Assembly: GCF_037126465.1 (NCBI RefSeq)
Contig: NW_026999353.1
Location: 62,001 to 126,000 of the forward strand
Reading direction: 5' to 3'
From: Ornithodoros turicata
Taxonomy: Eukaryota > Arthropoda > Arachnida > Ixodida > Argasidae
DNA: 64,000 nucleotides
The notes beneath the pieces were generated by a model. It made no database searches. It was not told the DNA's origin and was given only the letters and a program-made list of their open reading frames with translations. This document shows, in pieces, positions 35,411-58,365 of this stretch; position 1 is the stretch's first letter, and each line of letters begins with the position of its first letter. The translations under genes and the position numbers were made by a program.

Positions 35411-35572
35411 ATATATATATATATATATATGTTTATAAGTCCCAAACGTCGCCACACCAGCATTGGACAGCTGTTTCGGCCTTATTGGGCCTTCATCAGC
35501 AATGCGTAGGTGGGCGACGTTTGAGCGAGTGGCGTCGGAAGGTCACGTGGAACGTGATGTCCTCCCGTCAGG

Positions 35573-35603
<31 letters not shown>
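35411..35603 (-). mobile_element. PLE terminal fragment between (TA)n tracts
   Basis: A 145-bp minus-strand fragment (35431-35575) sits between (TA)n tracts at 35411-35431 and 35576-35603. It holds the hammerhead at 35445-35521. The second (TA)n directly abuts the 3' end of the intact PLE. Insertion into TA-rich microsatellites is known for endonuclease-bearing PLEs. Confidence 0.7.
35445..35521 (-). ncRNA. Type I hammerhead ribozyme, near-canonical
   Basis: On the minus strand, in order: a stem I strand ending GCATTG, the core CTGATGA, one extra A, stem II GGCC-CAATAA-GGCC, GAAA, a minimal self-complementary stem III CAGCTG, the cleavage triplet GTC, and the return strand of stem I starting CAATGC. 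Stem I closes with ACGTCGCC against GGCGACGT. Such minimal stem III motifs are typical of PLE and retrozyme hammerheads, which usually work as dimers. The single A between the core and stem II is the one departure. Confidence 0.85.
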
Positions 35604-35606
<3 letters not shown>

Positions 35607-35721
35607 TTAGATGCTTAGGAGGGCGGTTGACCACGAGAATGAAATAAGCAGGAAAAATCAGAAGACGACAAAGAGCTTACAGGAAAACACAAAGGGGAGT
35701 TTATTAACACATATAGGGATA

Positions 35722-35760
35722 GGGGTCGACGTTTCGGCAGTCAGCGCTGCCTTCGACGGG
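35722..35760 (-). other. Degenerate hammerhead-like fold in PLE 3' UTR
   Basis: On the minus strand CCGTCGA, one A, stem II GGCAG-CGCTGA-CTGCC, GAAA, and then a C that overlaps a self-complementary GTCGAC. The layout equals that of the hammerhead at 35.5 kb, but the CUGANGA core is altered at two positions. The identical fold lies at 39580-39618 in the upstream copy, i.e. just upstream of ORF1 in the pseudo-LTR. It may be structurally conserved even if it does not cleave. Confidence 0.6.
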
Positions 35761-35963
35761 ACTGGGGTTTGGTGACAAGAACAAGCTTTATATATGGGAG
35801 AGGGTTATGTACAAGGGAAAGAGAGCAGCGCATGCGCTTTTGTCATGACTAACATAGGTTGGTGACTAAGTGAGAGGGGAATGACCGGGTCTGTGCAGCA
35901 GGACCTTGAGGAAATACCCGTGAGCCTGAAAAAGAGACAAAAGAGTGTATGTATTGTGCTGGA

Positions 35964-38723
35964 TTAGGAATGCAGGTTGCGAATAGTAGAAAGGATTCCT
36001 GGATCTTCGTTTATCTGACACTGGAATTTATGAATGAGATAAGACTCGCGCTGTTCCCTGAGCCGCTGGGAAAGAAAGCCTGACTGCAGGATGAAAATAG
36101 ATATATTGGTGATTGAGTGTCCTGGTTTACTGAAATGGCGCGACACTGGCAGATTAGGTTTCTTCGCGACGTCAGATTTGTGGTTATTGAATCGCGTTCT
36201 AAATGAAGTAGCTGTCTGTCCGATATATTGGGCGTTGCATTCATTACATTGAAGAAGATAGACAACATTGGAAGAATTACAGTTAAAGTCGCCATTAATG
36301 TTGACCCGATAATTAGAATTGGTACTATCTGCAGAGTTAGCGGCTTGCATTGATTTACAAATTTGGCATCTAGTTGCATTACAAGGGTGGCAACCAATGT
36401 TATTTTCTGGAAGTTTGTTAATTTTGGCATTTACTAGTCTGTCTTGGATGTTCCGCGCCCGGCGATAACTTACGCGCGGTGGCTGTGAGAATATTTCCTT
36501 CATCCGATCAGATTGTGAAAGAATTGTGTAGTGGCGGTTGAGTATCCGGCTAATGTTAGGAACGCTGCCATTGAATGTGACAGTGAGATTTACTGCAGAA
36601 TTTCCATTGGCTCGAGGAGATCTTTGGAGCAATTGTTGGCGATCTGTGGATCTTGCTCTGGCTATAGCGTCTTTAACAAGTTTGTCCGGGTATTCACGAT
36701 CAATGAAGGTTTGTTCTAGTCGTTGGAGATGGTTGTCTAGTTCGGCATCGTTAGTGCATATTCTGCGGTAGCGCAATGCCTGACTATAAGGTATGGCTAA
36801 CTTAGTATGCCTTGGATGGCAACTGCGGAACGATAAGTATTGCTGAGCATCTGTAGGCTTCCGGTATAAGTTGGTTGAGATGCCGCCGTTTTGTAACTTG
36901 ACTTCGACATCCAAGAAGCTAACAGTGGAGGCGGAGTAGTGGGAGGTAAATTGAATGTTAGGGTGAATTTGGTTGAACCGGTTGATGAACGTGAGAAGGT
37001 CACTTTCAGAATGAGGCCATATGATAAAAATATCATCTAAAAATCTCTTGTACACAAGTGGTTTCAACACGGAACATTCGAGAAATGTTTCCTCCAGGGA
37101 TGCCATGAAGATATTTGCATAGTTGGGGGCCATTCTCGTGCCCATAGCTGTCCCGTTAACTTGCAGATAGTGCTTGTTATCAAATTCGAAGTTATTGGAG
37201 GTCAAAATCAGTGTTAGCAGTTCGGTGAGGACAGTAGGATCATACGGCTGGTCAGGTTGATTTTTGTATGCTGAAACGGCCGCTGCTATACCATCTGCGT
37301 GGGGAATATTAGTGTAAAGGGACGTGACGTCTAACGTTGCCAAGAGACAGCTTGAGGGAACGGTTACTTGCGATACAGTTTGAAGGAAATGGTTGGTATC
37401 TTTGACGTAGGAAGGTAATTTAGGGGGGATAGATTTGAGAACGTGATCGACGAAGGACGATATATTTTCTGTAGCGGTACCGTTACTGGACACAATTGGT
37501 CTTCCGGGATTGCCTGGTTTATGTATCTTAGGGAGCATGTAAAATCGGCCTGGTTTAGGGTCTTTAGGAAGTAAGTATTCGTAGAGCGCATCGCCAATTT
37601 TCTTAGTGGTCTTTAACCGTTTTAGTGTTTTACATATATCTGCGGCAATTTCATTAGTGGGGTCGGATTCGAGAGGTTTGTAAAAGTCTGCACAATTAAG
37701 TTGACGGAGTCCTTCCGCCACGTAAGCTTGCTTATCCATTACGACTATGGCACCTCCTTTATCAGCCTGTTTGATGATGATACCTTCGTTGCTTTCTAGC
37801 GCGGACAAGCTTTGCTGTTCTGCTTTCGTAAGATTGTGCCGGAATTTCCGATTGTTTGAGCTTGCATAAGTACTGAGAATATCTTTCTGAACAGCTTTGA
37901 TATACATATCAAGACTTTTATCTCGGTTCGGGTTGGGAGTAAAATCGGATTTTATACGGAAAGGATTTAGGTTTGATTGCGGTTTGTCGTAGAAGTATTC
38001 CGTAAGGCGTAGTCGCCGCGCAAAGTTGTCAAGATCCAGATGTAGCTGATATTCATCGATTTTACTGTTATTGGGACAAAACGATAATCCCTTCTCCAGT
38101 AGAGAGATTTCCGCGGGTGTAAGGTCACGGGAAGAAAGGTTAACTACGCTACATTTGGTTAGTGTGGGGATGTCGGGAGCAAACCGGCTGTTGCTGTCTA
38201 ACGGGGTATCTGGACGTAGTTGTGAAGTATTGCTACGGGCTTCGGAATTAGGGGGTGCCGAATCTGTGGAAGTATTATGAGTTGGAGGGCAATCGATTTT
38301 GTCTCTAAATAATTTCTTTTGCTTTTGGAGCTTCAGGTGGATGTTTTTCTTTTGGAGGAATTTGTCTAACTCTGATCTATGAGAATGTGACAACGGGGTA
38401 GTGCTGTTAATGGCATCGGCGTCTTCGGATAGAGACTGGATAGTATCTTGGCAGTGAGAAATTAGAATTTTAGTTAGGTCTAAAGATGCTTTGTTAAGAA
38501 TGGACAGCCATTGCACATTGTGTTCATGGTTCAAGGGGAAGGTTGATGTTTTGTGGATTTCTAGCCCACGCGGAATCCTGTCGTTTTCATGATAAGTAGC
38601 CAAAGTATCACGATGGGAGGTGTAGCGTGCAACTTTATCCGCGATTTTTCTGAGTTTAAAGAACGCCTCAGTGCTACTGCTGACAATTTGTGGAGAGTGA
38701 ATTGGTACTGACTCACCGGCTAG
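35964..38723 (-). CDS. PLE reverse transcriptase with C-terminal GIY-YIG endonuclease
   Basis: An open frame of 919 codons counted from the codon after the ORF1 stop. It has no ATG near its start (the first plausible non-ATG start, TTG, is at 38603), so it is probably expressed by readthrough or reinitiation. RT landmarks: ADKGGAIVVMD near residues 320-330, MLPKIHKPG at about 396-404, LDVTSLYTN at 464-472 with the first catalytic Asp, GTAMGTRMAPNYANIFM at 524-540, and FLDDIFI at 561-567 with the catalytic Asp pair. A linker has a Cys quartet (778, 781, 786, 789). The GIY-YIG nuclease follows with VYLL, QYIGQT, an Arg near 844 and a Glu at about 893. This is the full domain set of an endonuclease-positive PLE, with no stops or frameshifts, so it may be active. 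It acts in target-primed reverse transcription at TA-rich sites. Confidence 0.95.
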   Translation of the reverse strand, partial: LAGESVPIHSPQIVSSSTEAFFKLRKIADKVARYTSHRDTLATYHENDRIPRGLEIHKTSTFPLNHEHNVQWLSILNKASLDLTKILISHCQDTIQSLSEDADAINSTTPLSHSHRSELDKFLQKKNIHLKLQKQKKLFRDKIDCPPTHNTSTDSAPPNSEARSNTSQLRPDTPLDSNSRFAPDIPTLTKCSVVNLSSRDLTPAEISLLEKGLSFCPNNSKIDEYQLHLDLDNFARRLRLTEYFYDKPQSNLNPFRIKSDFTPNPNRDKSLDMYIKAVQKDILSTYASSNNRKFRHNLTKAEQQSLSALESNEGIIIKQADKGGAIVVMDKQAYVAEGLRQLNCADFYKPLESDPTNEIAADICKTLKRLKTTKKIGDALYEYLLPKDPKPGRFYMLPKIHKPGNPGRPIVSSNGTATENISSFVDHVLKSIPPKLPSYVKDTNHFLQTVSQVTVPSSCLLATLDVTSLYTNIPHADGIAAAVSAYKNQPDQPYDPTVLTELLTLILTSNNFEFDNKHYLQVNGTAMGTRMAPNYANIFMASLEETFLECSVLKPLVYKRFLDDIFIIWPHSESDLLTFINRFNQIHPNIQFTSHYSASTVSFLDVEVKLQNGGISTNLYRKPTDAQQYLSFRSCHPRHTKLAIPYSQALRYRRICTNDAELDNHLQRLEQTFIDREYPDKLVKDAIARARSTDRQQLLQRSPRANGNSAVNLTVTFNGSVPNISRILNRHYTILSQSDRMKEIFSQPPRVSYRRARNIQDRLVNAKINKLPENNIGCHPCNATRCQICKSMQAANSADSTNSNYRVNINGDFNCNSSNVVYLLQCNECNAQYIGQTATSFRTRFNNHKSDVAKKPNLPVSRHFSKPGHSITNISIFILQSGFLSQRLREQRESYLIHKFQCQINEDPGILSTIRNLHS

Positions 38724-38726
38724 TCA
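38721..38726 (-). promoter_or_regulatory. Candidate readthrough stop, UGA-CUAG
   Basis: The ORF1 stop is TGA (38726-38724) followed by CTA and then G. The downstream frame continues open into the RT without a shift: 39452 and 38603 differ by a multiple of three, and the codons between carry no other stop. UGA followed by CUA or CUAG is an established leaky-stop context in animal genes and RNA viruses. Readthrough here would give an SGNH-RT-EN polyprotein of about 1162 residues. Confidence 0.6.
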
Positions 38727-39452
38727 ATCCTGCTGCTTGGCTCGTGACGATTTCTCGGCACGTGTGCTTCTTTGTGTCCATGCTGCAGCCTCCTGGAGTG
38801 TCGGCCATACGGGGTCCGGCGTTCCAGTGCTTGCTGTACGTGTGGGTAGGCGACGGAGCAGCCGGGGTACCAGGGACCGCAGTCGGTGGGCGATCTGGGT
38901 GACTCCTTCGAAACTGGGGTGGAGGCCGTCAGCTGCAAGGACTCTGGTTGGGGGCTGTCGGTGGAAACCATGGTCCAGGAAATACAGGTCACGGGCACCT
39001 CGGCACAGGGTCATCAGTCGTTGGTTGAACGCAAATGCCCGGGGATTGCACTGGAATTCGCGTCGCCTGTCAAGATAAGGACGACGGCGGTTGTAGGATC
39101 TGGGTAAGATGAGGGTACATACCACAAGTTCGATGTTTCCCCGAGAGCGAATGTGGTCGATGAGTTGCACATAGCGACGGATGGCCATGTCGGGATCGGT
39201 GTCCGGCATGTCATTCGTCCCACAGTGCAACACCACGACACGAACACTTGCGGGCAGCTGGTCCACCTCTTCTTTGAAGTCTGCGATTCGGCCTCCGCTC
39301 TTGGACACGAACATTGTCGGGGCAGTACGGGATCTGGGGTCGAAGTGGAAACGGAGATATTTAGTTTGTGAGTCACCAAGTACAGCTATAACAGGAGCAT
39401 AAAAAGGGTACTTCCTGATGGGCATCTTCGGTCCTCCTCTGTCGGTGGTCAT
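38724..39452 (-). CDS. PLE ORF1: SGNH/GDSL hydrolase
   Basis: 242 codons, starting at the first ATG after an in-frame TAA five codons upstream and only 10 bp inside the tandem-unit junction. SGNH blocks are visible: block I VLGDSQT with Ser28, block II Gly at 53-54, block III HCGTND with Asn80, and block V DGLHPS with Asp175 and His178. All four catalytic-set residues are present, so an active esterase or acetylhydrolase fold is likely; the substrate is unknown. The last 30 residues are basic and low-complexity. The stop is TGA followed by CTAG, in frame with the RT ORF. SGNH modules occur in ORF1 of some CR1-type LINEs and in PLE-derived giant elements of bdelloid rotifers. Here the two flanking copies of the PLE show the domain is inside the unit, not a neighbour. 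Confidence 0.9.
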   Translation of the reverse strand: MTTDRGGPKMPIRKYPFYAPVIAVLGDSQTKYLRFHFDPRSRTAPTMFVSKSGGRIADFKEEVDQLPASVRVVVLHCGTNDMPDTDPDMAIRRYVQLIDHIRSRGNIELVVCTLILPRSYNRRRPYLDRRREFQCNPRAFAFNQRLMTLCRGARDLYFLDHGFHRQPPTRVLAADGLHPSFEGVTQIAHRLRSLVPRLLRRLPTRTASTGTPDPVWPTLQEAAAWTQRSTRAEKSSRAKQQD

Positions 39453-39461
39453 CGTAGAAAT

Positions 39462-40460
39462 AGATTAGAAGCTTAGGAGGGCGGTTGACCACGAGAATGA
39501 AATAAGCAGGAAAAATCAGAAGACGACAAAGAGCTTACAGGAAAACACAAAGGGGAGTTTATTAACACATATAGGGATAGGGGTCGACGTTTCGGCAGTC
39601 AGCGCTGCCTTCGACGGGACTGGGGTTTGGTGACAAGAACAAGCTTTATATATGGGAGAGGGTTATGTACAAGGGAAAGAGAGCAGCGCATGCGCTTTTG
39701 TCATGACTAACATAGGTTGGTGACTAAGTGAGAGGGGAATGACCGGGTCTGTGCAGCAGGACCTTGAGGAAATACCCGTGAGCCTGAAAAAGAGACAAAA
39801 GAGTGTATGTATTGTGCTGGATTAGGAATGCAGGTTGCGAATAGTAGAAAGGATTCCTCGATCTTCGTTTATCTGACACTGGAATTTATGAATGAGATAA
39901 GACTCGCGCTGTTCCCTGAGCCGCTGGGAAAGAAAGCCTGACTGCAGGATGAAAATAGATATATTGGTGATTGAGTGTCCTGGTTTACTGAAATGGCGCG
40001 ACACTGGCAGATTAGGTTTCTTCGCGACGTCAGATTTGTGGTTATTGAATCGCGTTCTAAATGAAGTAGCTGTCTGTCCGATATATTGGGCGTTGCATTC
40101 ATTACATTGAAGAAGATAGACAACATTGGAAGAATTACAGTTAAAGTCGCCATTAATGTTGACCCGATAATTAGAATTGGTACTATCTGCAGAGTTAGCG
40201 GCTTGCATTGATTTACAAATTTGGCATCTAGTTGCATTACAAGGGTGGCAACCAATGTTATTTTCTGGAAGTTTGTTAATTTTGGCATTTACTAGTCTGT
40301 CTTGGATGTTCCGCGCCCGGCGATAACTTACGCGCGGTGGCTGTGAGAATATTTCCTTCATCCGATCAGATTGTGAAAGAATTGTGTAGTGGCGGTTGAG
40401 TATCCGGCTAATGTTAGGAACGCTGCCATTGAATGTGACAGTGAGATTTACTGCAGAATT
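39462..40460 (-). pseudogene. Upstream partial PLE copy (endonuclease end, pseudo-LTR)
   Basis: Minus-strand frame 40595-39822 encodes the last roughly 210 residues of the RT-EN protein, identical by eye to the full copy apart from one Pro to Arg change near the C-terminus. It is joined upstream to a (TA)n-derived Ile-Tyr run from the microsatellite. Truncated by its position in the tandem, it probably serves as promoter and leader for the full unit. Near 40459-40470 a 12-bp piece ending CTGCAGAAT is duplicated at the junction with the (TA)n tract. Confidence 0.9.
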
Positions 40461-40467
40461 TACTGCA

Positions 40468-40504
<37 letters not shown>

Positions 40505-40509
40505 TGGAA

Positions 40510-40581
40510 CGATGCGACAGCACCAGAGGACACGTGTTTCGCCGTGTTTGCGTCTCGTCAGCTCTGGGTAGCTGCGCATCG
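40510..40581 (-). ncRNA. Type I hammerhead ribozyme, copy A
   Basis: Minus strand: stem I strand ending CCAGAG, core CTGACGA, stem II GACG-CAAACA-CGGC (one mismatch, an A where copy B has C), GAAA, self-complementary stem III CACGTG, cleavage triplet GTC, and stem I return starting CTCTGG and closing with CGCATCG. The core is fully canonical (CUGANGA and GAAA). Confidence 0.9.
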
Positions 40582-40715
40582 TTCAGAATTGGCAAACCAG
40601 GGGTCGCTCAGCGAGCAATATACACCAGGGAGGGTGACTGAGCACTCCTCAATGCCACAGTGCAAGCCAGTGAATTATAATGAGGGGGAAAAGCCATTAA
40701 ATAAACAAGTAAATG

Positions 40716-40933
40716 ATGCTAGACGTGTTTTTAATTCAAAATTACAGATTAAGATGGCTTCTATGGCTGCACGCAGAGAAACAGATACTCATGGAACGAT
40801 GCGACAGCACCAGAGGACACGTGTTTCGCCGTGTTTGCGGCTCGTCAGCTCTGGGTAGCTGCGCATCGTTCGGAGTTGGCAAACCAGGGGTCACTCAGCG
40901 AACGTAATTTTGAATTAAAAACACGTCTAGCAT
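40716..40933. repeat. 30-bp perfect inverted repeat at retrozyme end
   Basis: 40716-40745, inside the monomer body, is an exact reverse complement of 40904-40933, which lies where the second retrozyme copy breaks off and the Gypsy sequence begins. It looks like a snap-back or template switch during reverse transcription or repair at integration. Confidence 0.95.
40797..40868 (-). ncRNA. Type I hammerhead ribozyme, copy B, canonical
   Basis: As copy A, but stem II is perfect (GCCG-CAAACA-CGGC). Core CTGACGA and GAAA, stem III CACGTG, cleavage triplet GTC. Stem I pairs CCAGAG with CTCTGG and CGATGCG with CGCATCG. By sequence this is the best-preserved hammerhead in the window and is expected to cleave, probably as a dimer because stem III is only three pairs if folded singly. 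Confidence 0.93.
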
Positions 40934-40934
40934 G

Positions 40935-42058
40935 ACGTTTCCACCGGTACGCCGCGCCCCTTCGTACCGGCCACACTTCAGCGCAGGGTCTTCGACACTC
41001 TTCACTCCCTTGCCCATGGTGGCGTCCGTGCCACCCACCACCTCATCTCATCATGATACGACTGGCCTGGCATGAGGAATCATATCCGCAAATGGACCCA
41101 GTCTTGCGTCCCATGCCAGCGTGCGAAAGTGTAGCGTCACACGACCTCCCCCCTTGCCGCCTTCCTGCCCCCGGATCACAGGTTTCACAACATTCACGTG
41201 GACATCGTCGGCCCGCTTCCTTCATAACACGGTTACTGCTACCTACTCACCTGCATAGACAGGTACACTCGGTGGCCCGATGCCGCTCCTATGGTGGACG
41301 CCACCGCCGAAACTGTATGCTTCACCTTACTGCACACCTGGGTCGCACGTTTCGGGACCCCAGCCGAACTCATAACTGACCGAGGAGCACAATTTGAATC
41401 CTCCCTATTTCGCTGCATGCTCAAAATGTTGGGAACAACCAGGTATCGCACAACCGTCTATCATCCCGCCGCCAACGGGCTCGTCGAGAGATTCCATCGT
41501 CATCTGAAATCTGCCATCATGGCATATGAGCATCGCACCCACTGGCATAATCACCACCCCTTGATACTCTTCGGTATTCGCTGTGCCGCCAATGCGGACT
41601 CACACTGCTCCCCCGCGGACATGGTCTACGGATCGAGCCTCCGAATTCCGGGGCAGCTGCTTCTTGCCCCTCGAGACCACTTGGACTCGCCCCTGGACTT
41701 CCTCGCCCGACTCCAGTCCACTCTCTCCCAACCTCGGCCTCTCCCGGTCCGAAAATCCGTCGGACGACCATTCTATATACCCCGAGAACTCGCCTTCGTC
41801 ACCCACGTTTTCGTACGTTCGCCCCCCCGTACACCGATCCTTGGAAGCCCCCTACACCGGCCCCTGCCGCGTCATCGCCCGCGGTTCCGTATCCTAGTCA
41901 ACGGTAAAGAGCAACCAGTCGACATCGATAGGCTCAAGCCCGCCTACCTCCAAGACGATCCACCGCCAGACGCAACTACTACCGCTTCCAGCTACAACCG
42001 AGATGAAATCAATTGCAATATAGCATATGCTGGAGGGCACTCCCTAGGGGGGCATTAG
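40935..42058 (+). pseudogene. Ty3/Gypsy integrase fragment
   Basis: An integrase zinc-binding HHCC region is readable at about 41000-41120 (His pair in HSLAHGGVRATHH, then CVPC). The catalytic core has VDIVGPLP (Asp at 41201), LITDRGAQF (Asp at 41378) and NGLVERFHR (Glu at 41486), the D-D-E triad of retroviral-type integrases. The main open frame is 41291-42058. Stops near 41120 and 41225 and a frame shift between about 41830 and 41885 (APYTGP is in another frame) show decay. Gag, protease, RT and LTRs are absent. The last codons, from about 41998, are actually the terminal repeat of the next element. Confidence 0.9.
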
Positions 42059-42783
42059 CAGACTCCTAAGGCAGTGTCTTAATTAACTTTCAATGATTAA
42101 CTTTTTATTATAAAAGCTACGAAGTTGCTCCAATGAGAACATCTGATCTCTTCGGTCACCAGATACCAAAGCCGTTTTCAGAACAAAAATCCGTTCGATA
42201 GATCGTCCGCAAAAAATTTGTGAAGGAACGCCATTTTTTCTTTATTTTATTCATTGCGCATCTCTAGAGACGCGTCTTTCCTTCGCCCCCAATACGAGAG
42301 GATGAAAGAGCACGCTATCGCCTCTTACGTCCTGGAAAAAGATTAAAAGAAAACAGAAAATGCAGCCCAAGATAAGGGCAGTCGCGATAGAGTCACCCGA
42401 TAGATTTGTGTTTTTGTTTTGTTTCCGCAAGTTAAAGCTAATCTTCGACGCATGAGGCGGCACTGTGCTCTTTCACTCTCTCACACTGGGGGTAAAGGAA
42501 AGCCGCTTCTTTGAAGATCCGCAATAAACCAAATAAAGAAAAAAAAACGCGCTCCTTCACGATTTTTTTGCGGACGATCTACCGAACGGATTTTTGTTCT
42601 GAAAACGGTTTTGGTATCTGGTGACCGAAGGGATCAGATGTTCTCATTGGAGCAACTTCGTAGCTTTTATAATTAAAAAGTTAATTATTGAAAGTTAATT
42701 AAGACATTGCCTTAGGAGTCTGTTAATGCCCCCCTAGGGAGTGCCCTTCAGCATATGCTATATTGCAATTGATTTCATCTCGG
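41998..42783. mobile_element. Long-TIR (foldback) MITE, 786 bp
   Basis: Terminal inverted repeats of about 240 bp (41998-42240 and 42545-42783) start CCGAGATGAAATCAATTGC and are about 95 percent alike by eye. The roughly 300-bp centre has a smaller inner inverted pair (about 42297-42312 against 42462-42480) and no coding capacity. It truncates the Gypsy integrase. No clear target duplication is visible at the ends, so the superfamily is unassigned. Confidence 0.88.
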
Positions 42784-56976: not shown

Positions 56977-58365
56977 TTATTTGTGAAGTGTTTCTAGGGT
57001 GCCTTGTGATTTGTTGATACCGGACGGGTGAAGAGCGTTGAACTTGTATATGAGATAAGACTCCCTATCACGTCTGTCACATGTGGATCTAAACCCAGTT
57101 TCTAGAATATATAGTTTAATGTTGTCAAAATTGTGACCAGGAACGTTAAAGTGTTCGGCGACTGCTTTGGGGAGTTTGTTGGACGTGTCGGTTCTGTGTC
57201 CGGTAAGGCGGTTGTTCATTTGTTGGCCGGTTTCACCAATGTATTGCATAGAGCAGTCGCCGCATTCAATGCAGTATATGACATTGGAGCTTGTGCATGT
57301 GAATGTGTGGTTAACTGGGTGGGTGTAATTGCTAGCAGTGCTTTTGATGGAGTTAGCGTGTTGAACGTGCTTGCATGTTTTGCAGCGCGGGAGGTTGCCG
57401 TGTCGTGTTCCCGTGTACGGCGTGCTCGTTTTGCTGATTTTGGCATTGACCAAGGAGTCTGCCAGGTTTCTTGCGCGTCGGTATGTCACCTGTATGGGAT
57501 TTGTGAATATGTTGCTAAGTCGGTCACTGCTTTGGAGGAGGGGCTCGTGCTTCTGTAGAATAGCTTTGATGTTTGGAAGTGCGTTGGAATATCTTTTGAT
57601 GAAGCTTATTTGGAACGCGTCGCGATTTTTTCGGTTTTCCAGAACCTCGTTTCGATCGAGTGTGAGTGCCTTGCGACGGAATTCGGTTAGGAGGGAGTCT
57701 GGATAGTCCCTTTGCGCAAGTGTACTGCAGAGTTCGTCAATCTTCTCAGCGTAATCTGTGTCGTTTGTGCGACACAGATTACGCTGACACAGACAGACAC
57801 ACCAAATTATGCGTACACAGACTACACATACTACATACACACATACTCACACTACATACTACACAGACACAACAAATTATGCGTAGTCTTACACTCTGCC
57901 CATTAGGAATTCCAACCTTACAGTGACGCGGGTGGTGACTCTTGAAGTGAAGGTATTGTTGTTTGTCAGTTCGCTTTTTGTACAGGGTTGTGATCAGGTT
58001 GCCGTTGTCTAGTGATATCGTGGTGTCGAGGAACTTAATTAAGTGAGTTGACTGTTGTGATGTGAACTTTATGTTGCTATGCGCGGTGTTCAGTAGATCT
58101 ACGAACTTTTGCAGTTCATGTTCCCCGTGTTCCCATATTATCAGTATATCATCGATGCATCGAAGGCACACCGTGGGTTTTAATGAGAGGGCGCTGAGAA
58201 CTTTGTTTTCTAAGAACCCCATGAAGATATTTGCGTATGTGGGCGCAACAGGTGTGCCCATACTTGTACCGTGTACTTGTAGGTAGTATTCGCCATTGAA
58301 CTCGAAGTAGTTAATTTTCTCCGGTACGTCACAGGTTGCCTCTAGCAGGGCAGAAAGACTCCGGT
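56977..58365 (-). pseudogene. PLE RT-endonuclease fragment, disrupted
   Basis: 58365-57890: LLEATCDVPEKINYFEFNGE, then GTSMGTPVAPTYANIFMGF, IDDILIIW (catalytic Asp pair), IKFLDTTI and LYKKRTDKQQYL, the RT palm and thumb. 57770-56977 (another frame): DTDYAEKIDELCSTL, YRRARNLADSLVNAKI, a CKTCK motif, then NVIYCIECGDCSMQYIGETG, the GIY-YIG motif, and RESYLIYKFN with the catalytic Glu. The pieces are separated by about 120 bp of TGTG-rich repeat that shifts the frame. The first part of the RT is missing. It is not functional. Confidence 0.9.
57747..57890. repeat. Hairpin and low-complexity insertion inside PLE ORF
   Basis: 57747-57763 and 57770-57786 are a 17-bp perfect inverted pair with a 6-base loop. 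Next to it, at 57787-57890, is an ACAC/ATAC-rich stretch containing two copies of CAAATTATGCGTA about 75 bp apart. The left arm lies in PLE coding sequence; the right side and the repeats interrupt the frame. Confidence 0.8.

Follow-up and report, generated by a model that had tools for sequence, protein, structure and literature searches.

A conserved UGA codon and a splice donor between the SGNH and reverse transcriptase frames of tick Penelope-like elements suggest a gag/gag-pol-like output

How can a reverse transcriptase (RT) be made when its reading frame follows the stop codon of another protein and offers no AUG ahead of its conserved start? The question is raised by a 64,000-nt stretch of the genome of the soft tick Ornithodoros turicata, of the family Argasidae (the window; contig NW_026999353.1, positions 62,001-126,000, or G000:C71:62001-126000 in the 1.07-Gb, 379-contig assembly, labelled G000, that was searched). 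It contains a young Penelope-like element (PLE) at 40461-35602, in which a pseudo-long terminal repeat (pLTR) is followed by an SGNH hydrolase open reading frame (ORF) and then by RT and a GIY-YIG endonuclease (EN). Features of the window are on the minus strand unless stated otherwise. From the SGNH ATG, 242 codons, one stop codon and 919 further codons run in a single frame, as a preliminary description of the locus had stated. The SGNH ORF (38724-39452, from first ATG to TGA) belongs to an open frame of 246 codons that begins at 39464, with its first ATG at 39452. The RT-EN ORF (35964-38723), defined by the ORF map and Pfam, has 919 codons from 38723 to 35967, with TAA next. The sole separator is TGA (38724-38726) with CTAG on its 3′ side (38720-38723), and the junction reads AAG CAG CAG GAT TGA CTA GCC GGT GAG. 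The absence of ATG from the 40 codons after the stop, also part of that description, is true and understated: the frame runs on for 272 codons with no ATG, and one appears only at codon 273 (37907-37905). A linker of 20 in-frame codons (38664-38723), free of stop codons and ATG, connects the UGA to the conserved FFxLRK start of RT; its peptide includes, for example, LAGESVPIHSPQ....

We consider it probable, from the sequence features described below, that this SGNH-bearing PLE has a gag/gag-pol-like output, in which splicing would give SGNH and readthrough of the UGA some SGNH-RT-EN. Full-length RNA would begin in the 5′ pLTR, and part of it would be spliced. The spliced RNA, joined from a donor 7 or 10 nt past the SGNH stop to an acceptor after the RT-EN stop, would encode SGNH alone. 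On the unspliced RNA most ribosomes would terminate at UGA-CUR (CUA or CUG) after SGNH, and a minority would decode UGA as sense and continue in the same frame into SGNH-linker-RT-EN.

The stop codon is conserved well beyond this copy. Among 54 genome matches from the family of the window element, those spanning the stop amount to 37 distinct copies, all with TGA; CTAG follows in 36 and CTGG in one, in a 37-row listing that includes one duplicate. With 97-100% identity among them, the uniform TGA is weak evidence on its own. Two of them carry frame-changing indels no more than 60 nt past the stop: L020 lacks 4 nt, and L026 has gained 1 nt. A search of the genome with the SGNH protein gave 153 matches, and the stop region was taken from 60 of these. 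Fifty-five were used, after removal of four loci without a recognisable stop region (L036, L062, L070, L091) and one false placement (L044). Assigned to named family representatives, which L087 (0.61) and L066 (0.59) fit poorly, these further copies sort into 11 families, A to K. TGA is present in 52 of the 55, the others being L032 (TGG), L051 (TCA), and L053 (TAA). The preliminary description had proposed aligning copies, and had named a sense codon in other copies, or frameshifts in most of them, as findings that would speak against readthrough. The outcome favours readthrough. With both sets pooled, TGA occupies the site in 89 of 92 copies, a sense codon in two (one TGG, one TCA), and TAA in one; the frame is the same in 11/11 family representatives. 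For family K it is kept in L058, while L081 is frame-shifted.

The comparison between families carries most of the weight. Over the region from 12 nt before to 330 nt after the stop, families A to J share 59-76% DNA identity (K is 87% identical to G). Silent differences in the N-terminal part of RT reach 0.50-0.93 per silent site, and these ten families are saturated at silent sites against each other. GAY-TGA-CTR is nevertheless found in frame in all 11 representatives, with CTA in nine and CTG in two. The Asp codon preceding the UGA has drifted (GAT in five, GAC in six), UAA occurs in no representative, and this freely drifting codon can be taken as a built-in control for the conservation of UGA. 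The UGA-CUAG motif emphasised at first is thus present in the window copy, but the conserved core is UGA-CUR: CUAG occurs in 2/11 representatives (A and J), CUAA in 7/11, and CUGA in 2/11. In families A to J the linker to the FFxLRK start measures 18-21 codons, differs in length by whole codons, and has no in-frame stop, and in none of the representatives does an ATG precede the conserved RT start in frame.

Substitution patterns bear on the frame that follows the UGA. In five family pairs, the ratio of non-silent to silent differences (pN/pS) in the linker is 0.62 in frame, versus 0.76 and 1.09 in the other frames; for the N-terminal part of RT the corresponding values are 0.33, versus 1.38 and 1.95. 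Judged by these ratios, selection between families acts on the frame downstream of the UGA. For the family of the window element, this selection covers RT sequence ahead of the first ATG at codon 273. Readthrough as an expression strategy, which the preliminary description had offered as natural, is supported by the cross-family UGA-CUR, the shared frame, and the lack of an ATG ahead of the RT start.

A second signal lies directly behind the stop. GGTGAG at 38712-38717 contains the top-scoring GT of the element and forms a 5′ splice site, with the intron starting at 38716. The best acceptor (a pyrimidine tract and CAG at 35926-35948) ranks first of 201 AGs scanned, and 41 nt separate it from the start of the RT-EN stop codon. 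Together they define a GT-AG intron of 2791 nt (35926-38716), which was predicted from the intact element and removes the linker and all of RT-EN, leaving SGNH and its UGA. The donor GT begins 7 nt (family of the window element) or 10 nt past the UGA. After CUR, the representatives read (ACC) GCC-GGT-GAG or similar, with GGT in 11/11, GAG in 10/11, and AAG in 1/11. All four Gly codons occur in another invariant Gly column (GGG 3, GGA 4, GGT 2, GGC 1), which indicates a nucleotide-level constraint on GGT(G/A)AG. Splice sites were scored in five families with full-length copies (A, B, E, G, and H) over the range -900 to +3000. The donor ranks 1, 1, 1, 2, and 1, respectively, and the acceptor near the RT-EN end ranks first in all five. 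From the acceptor to the first base of the RT-EN stop there are 41 nt in A, 42 in B, 52 in G, and 59 in H; in the E copy the frame is broken near the RT-EN end. A mini-intron inside the linker was rejected as too short and as leaving the UGA in place.

Genomic copies record the predicted splicing event. L087 reads ...GATTGACTAGCCG joined directly to GCTCACGGG..., an exact donor-to-acceptor join from which the 2791 nt corresponding to 38716-35926 of the window are gone. L087 belongs to a head-to-head insertion (L096) in which both arms are spliced. A genome search for the junction pattern, with 3 mismatches allowed, returned seven matches with at most one mismatch, and a reversed-pattern control returned none. 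Two arms are at C168, two at each of two places on C44, and one at C2, which keeps about 16 nt of exon 1. On C44 a single insertion has been duplicated together with its flanks (99.3%; L097/L098), so the seven junctions represent three independent insertions. Because the ends of the junction copies match those of unspliced copies, the spliced RNA itself was evidently retrotransposed. A spliced RNA with SGNH as its only ORF has therefore existed in the family of the window element, and in these genomic copies the spliced form keeps the first ORF and loses pol.

The arrangement constrains how RT can be made. Splicing cannot produce it, because the UGA precedes the donor and RT-EN is the intron. 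That leaves unspliced RNA as the source of RT, read in frame and past UGA-CUR with no AUG to start from. Readthrough is the most economical route to RT that these features support, and we strongly infer a fusion protein made in this way. As for the spliced RNA, under the usual 50-nt rule an exon junction nearer to the stop triggers no decay. Its junction lies 7-10 nt past the stop, so it should be a stable SGNH message. The weak stop and the splice site are apparently set for much of the first protein and little of the fused one; the ratio of the two products and a need for both would follow from the proposed scheme.

Several alternatives have to be weighed against readthrough. UGA-CUR might merely end SGNH, with its conservation serving the donor, and RT-EN might be initiated separately through an internal ribosome entry site, reinitiation, or a non-AUG codon. 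The GGTRAG donor is a real nucleotide-level constraint only a few bases from the UGA, and CTG stands directly 3′ of the UGA in families C and I. However, UGA and CUR lie 4-10 nt upstream of the donor consensus, beyond its reach, and independent initiation would need no common frame. Start codons are also scarce: CTG, GTG, TTG, and ACG are all missing from the first 22 codons of 7/11 representatives, and in 8/11 the stretch from -12 to +66 is free of ATG whatever the frame. Reinitiation at an ATG was rejected. We regard separate initiation as unlikely.

RT-EN might also be made from a different spliced RNA, in which an upstream exon with an AUG, from the 5′ untranslated region or the start of SGNH, is spliced to a linker acceptor and the UGA is skipped. 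Intron retention is known in PLEs from the accessible text of one report (PMC3846280), the present element is spliced elsewhere, and weak AGs exist in the linker (scores of 3.2, 3.6, and 2.4 in A; 6.4 in H). The real acceptor scores much higher (12-18), the linker AGs sit at different places from family to family, and E has none above 0. Such splicing would leave the shared frame, the open linker, and UGA-CUR unexplained in 11/11 representatives. A copy with an AUG exon joined to the linker was not noticed among the 92 copies, although no dedicated search for one was made. We judge this route to be quite improbable.

That the seven junctions are chance deletions or assembly artefacts, and not copies of spliced RNA, is very improbable. 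All come from one assembly, and two of the four places are one duplicated insertion; yet each breaks precisely at GT and AG, where the intact element had already led us to expect the boundaries, and they lie in three unrelated places with the usual 3′ terminus and (AT)n. Decay of an ancestral SGNH-RT fusion ORF by a nonsense mutation, for which L032, with TGG and the whole frame open, could be cited, is hardly credible and for this copy refuted, because TGA is at the same codon in 89/92 copies and all 11 families; in addition, none of 2864 candidate proteins of 640-2030 aa is a fused relative matching SGNH plus linker.

Other observations weigh against the combination of readthrough and splicing. 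The copy L032 (G000:C4:62166458-62167183, minus strand), of the same family as the window element, has TGG and an open SGNH-RT-EN frame of 1164 codons, and a plain fusion is thus at least tolerated as DNA; it is the sole TGG open-frame copy among the matches listed for the SGNH protein search. Between families the linker gives a modest signal of selection. Within the family of the window element none is evident: codons 247-267 show nine non-silent and three silent changes (non-silent/silent relative to expectation, 1.26; with only recurrent variants counted, 0.84). Near-cognate starts other than those counted above remain, and the window linker includes ATT codons. Two families carry UGA-CUG in place of UGA-CUA. 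No stable RNA structure is predicted 3′ of the stop (z +0.48; pseudoknots not modelled), and a conserved structure is unconvincing (alifold -1.4, equalled by 12 of 200 shuffles), with only a weak 5-bp consensus hairpin; a structured RNA as stimulator of readthrough was rejected on these values. As for the intron, GGTRAG is lost in 7 of the 55 further copies and kept in 47; the remaining one is the spliced copy L087. In a wider scan, sites outside the scored range outscore the B donor and the H acceptor, and the G donor is third. Finally, the junction copies come from a search with the junction of the window element's family, and splicing in the other families is predicted from their splice-site sequences.

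Relatives outside this set of families differ in how RT begins. Among the 39 best RT matches (seven of them named as tick sequences and one a turtle gene model), four have a Met ahead of the motif (P0004, P0007, P0016, and P0017), which indicates that the AUG-less arrangement is not universal among relatives. P0041, P0042, P0046, and P0047 begin with Met just before the same motif, and the mussel PLE L100 has MSYEFYFKKLRK, where Met likewise comes shortly before it. Contigs filed as prokaryotic contain four PLE RT relatives (L100-L103), an animal-type RT in mussel (Bathymodiolus) symbiont, Enterovibrio, Epulopiscium, and Saccharibacteria contigs; these are probably eukaryotic contamination, and no SGNH is found in L100, L101, or L102. 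In IMG/VR, one pattern had no match, and another fit 34 stretches, of which none is a relative.

The combination can be set beside several known systems. In gammaretroviruses (murine leukaemia virus, MLV), gag-UAG-pol places the first ORF and pol in one frame with a single stop. Candida Tca2 has gag-UGA-pol, and its flanking sequence alone gave no readthrough in yeast, according to the accessible part of that study (PMC2194720). Both resemble the tick PLE in having a first ORF and an RT polyprotein in frame across one stop; they are LTR elements in which a 3′ pseudoknot is relied on or was tested, whereas no stable RNA structure was found in the tick PLE. In Drosophila copia and barley BARE1, an RNA dedicated to the first protein arises when the pol portion is spliced out. 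These too are LTR elements, with a single polyprotein ORF and splicing in place of readthrough, and the tick PLE has both signals. For the stop context, the accessible text of Loughran 2014 (PMC4132726) gives 1.5% readthrough for UGA-CUA alone in a mammalian reporter, more for CUAG, and a lowered effect of the motif with UAA or UAG as the stop. Genes with UGA-CUA or UGA-CUAG and alphaviruses, as presented there (PMC4132726), share with the tick PLE a long-conserved UGA-CUA(G) and an in-frame extension. UGA-CUA is present in 9/11 tick families and the extension is under selection. What sets the tick PLE apart is that it is a retrotransposon whose extension is an RT-EN enzyme of 919 codons, that CUG follows the stop in two families, and that CUAA predominates.

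Among PLEs, SGNH or esterase ORFs are known in Neptune-like elements of fish and molluscs, and the accessible portions of these reports (PMC5408684, PMC3905857) describe PLE RT, GIY-YIG EN, pLTRs, and the SGNH/esterase ORF as in the tick element, with no mention there of a shared frame, an inter-ORF UGA, or removal of RT-EN. Retained introns, head-to-head copies, and AT-rich targets are likewise reported for PLEs (PMC3846280, PMC11167929, in the parts accessible). Canonical Penelope/Poseidon elements, as those parts present them, share with the tick element pLTRs, head-to-head partial copies, a GIY-YIG EN after RT, AT-rich targets, and intron retention; unlike it, they have one main ORF with its own AUG. 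The term "read-through" in the accessible text of PMC3846280 refers to transcripts. The preliminary description knew of no readthrough in PLEs, and we found none described in the listed titles and abstract openings of the open literature, subscription papers being outside this scope. A PLE with readthrough and a pol-removing intron is therefore likely to be new, which is not the same as established.

The remaining features agree with a PLE. The 5′ pLTR (39460-40461) and the 3′ pLTR (35602-36603) form a 1002-bp direct repeat with 99.8% identity and two mismatches by self-BLAST; the repeat includes the coding sequence of the EN C-terminus and the 3′ untranslated region. The element ends in CTAATCTAT, then (AT)n, and the 3′ ends of copies with a visible flank run into an (AT)-rich stretch. 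RT is followed by GIY-YIG, and partial copies occur in tandem and inverted. Head-to-head inverted pairs of 5′-truncated copies ending in (AT)n are common (e.g., L019, L030, L010, and L096), and a tandem array of element copies lies at G000 C2:17937200-17955300. Pfam assigns Lipase_GDSL_2 (PF13472, 4e-10) to the SGNH ORF, RVT_1 (6e-09) to residues 400-584 of the RT-EN ORF (36972-37526), and a GIY-YIG core (1.3e-04) to residues 820-858 (36150-36266). The best RT matches are other PLE RTs (best 120 of 2215 proteins with E<=0.001). A 90-bp part of the RT ORF (37103-37192) matches 58219-58308 at 72%, possibly a second PLE remnant. GDS, GTND, and DGLH, which we take to be the SGNH motifs, are visible in the SGNH sequence, so that an SGNH/GDSL hydrolase ORF with catalytic motifs stands upstream of RT. 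The closest solved chain to SGNH is 4c1b_A, "ORF1-encoded protein" (E=4e-06). In the NCBI-derived proteins P0121 and P0125, 24 SGNH residues are missing between NIELV and CNPRAF (about 39120-39050), as if a 72-nt in-frame intron had been called inside SGNH; P0122 and P0124 retain them, and the gap is either real splicing or an annotation artefact.

Hammerhead motifs have been reported for PLEs, though not for every PLE. Rfam finds none within the 1002-bp pLTRs, and its matches fall in the flanks only: Hammerhead_1 at 40523-40567 (38.1 bits, above cutoff) and HH9 at 35442-35517 (27.1 bits, below the cutoff of 52). The Hammerhead_1 match sits in a 117-bp sequence present twice (40498-40614 and 40785-40901; 96%). 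Further out, the plus strand carries a remnant integrase ORF at 41228-42058 (rve, 1.4e-11), presumably of a Gypsy-type LTR element. A large imperfect inverted repeat (83%) occupies 41998-42783, and similar self-inverted sequence occurs near families E and H.

For RTs of this kind, automatic annotation picks the wrong start: in the O. turicata model P0001 it is the first ATG, which lies behind the conserved RT start. For this lineage of tick PLEs as a whole, we think it likely, with some reserve, that these PLEs are under a two-level control in which UGA-CUR readthrough is combined with a donor that excises RT-EN, SGNH standing in the place of Gag. If so, the splicing state of the RNA would determine whether readthrough is even an option, and a retrovirus-like control would exist in a class of retroelements separate from LTR elements and long interspersed elements. 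The short cassette of UGA-CUR and a splice donor, present in 11 families of one genome, would make the competition between readthrough and splicing testable in reporters.

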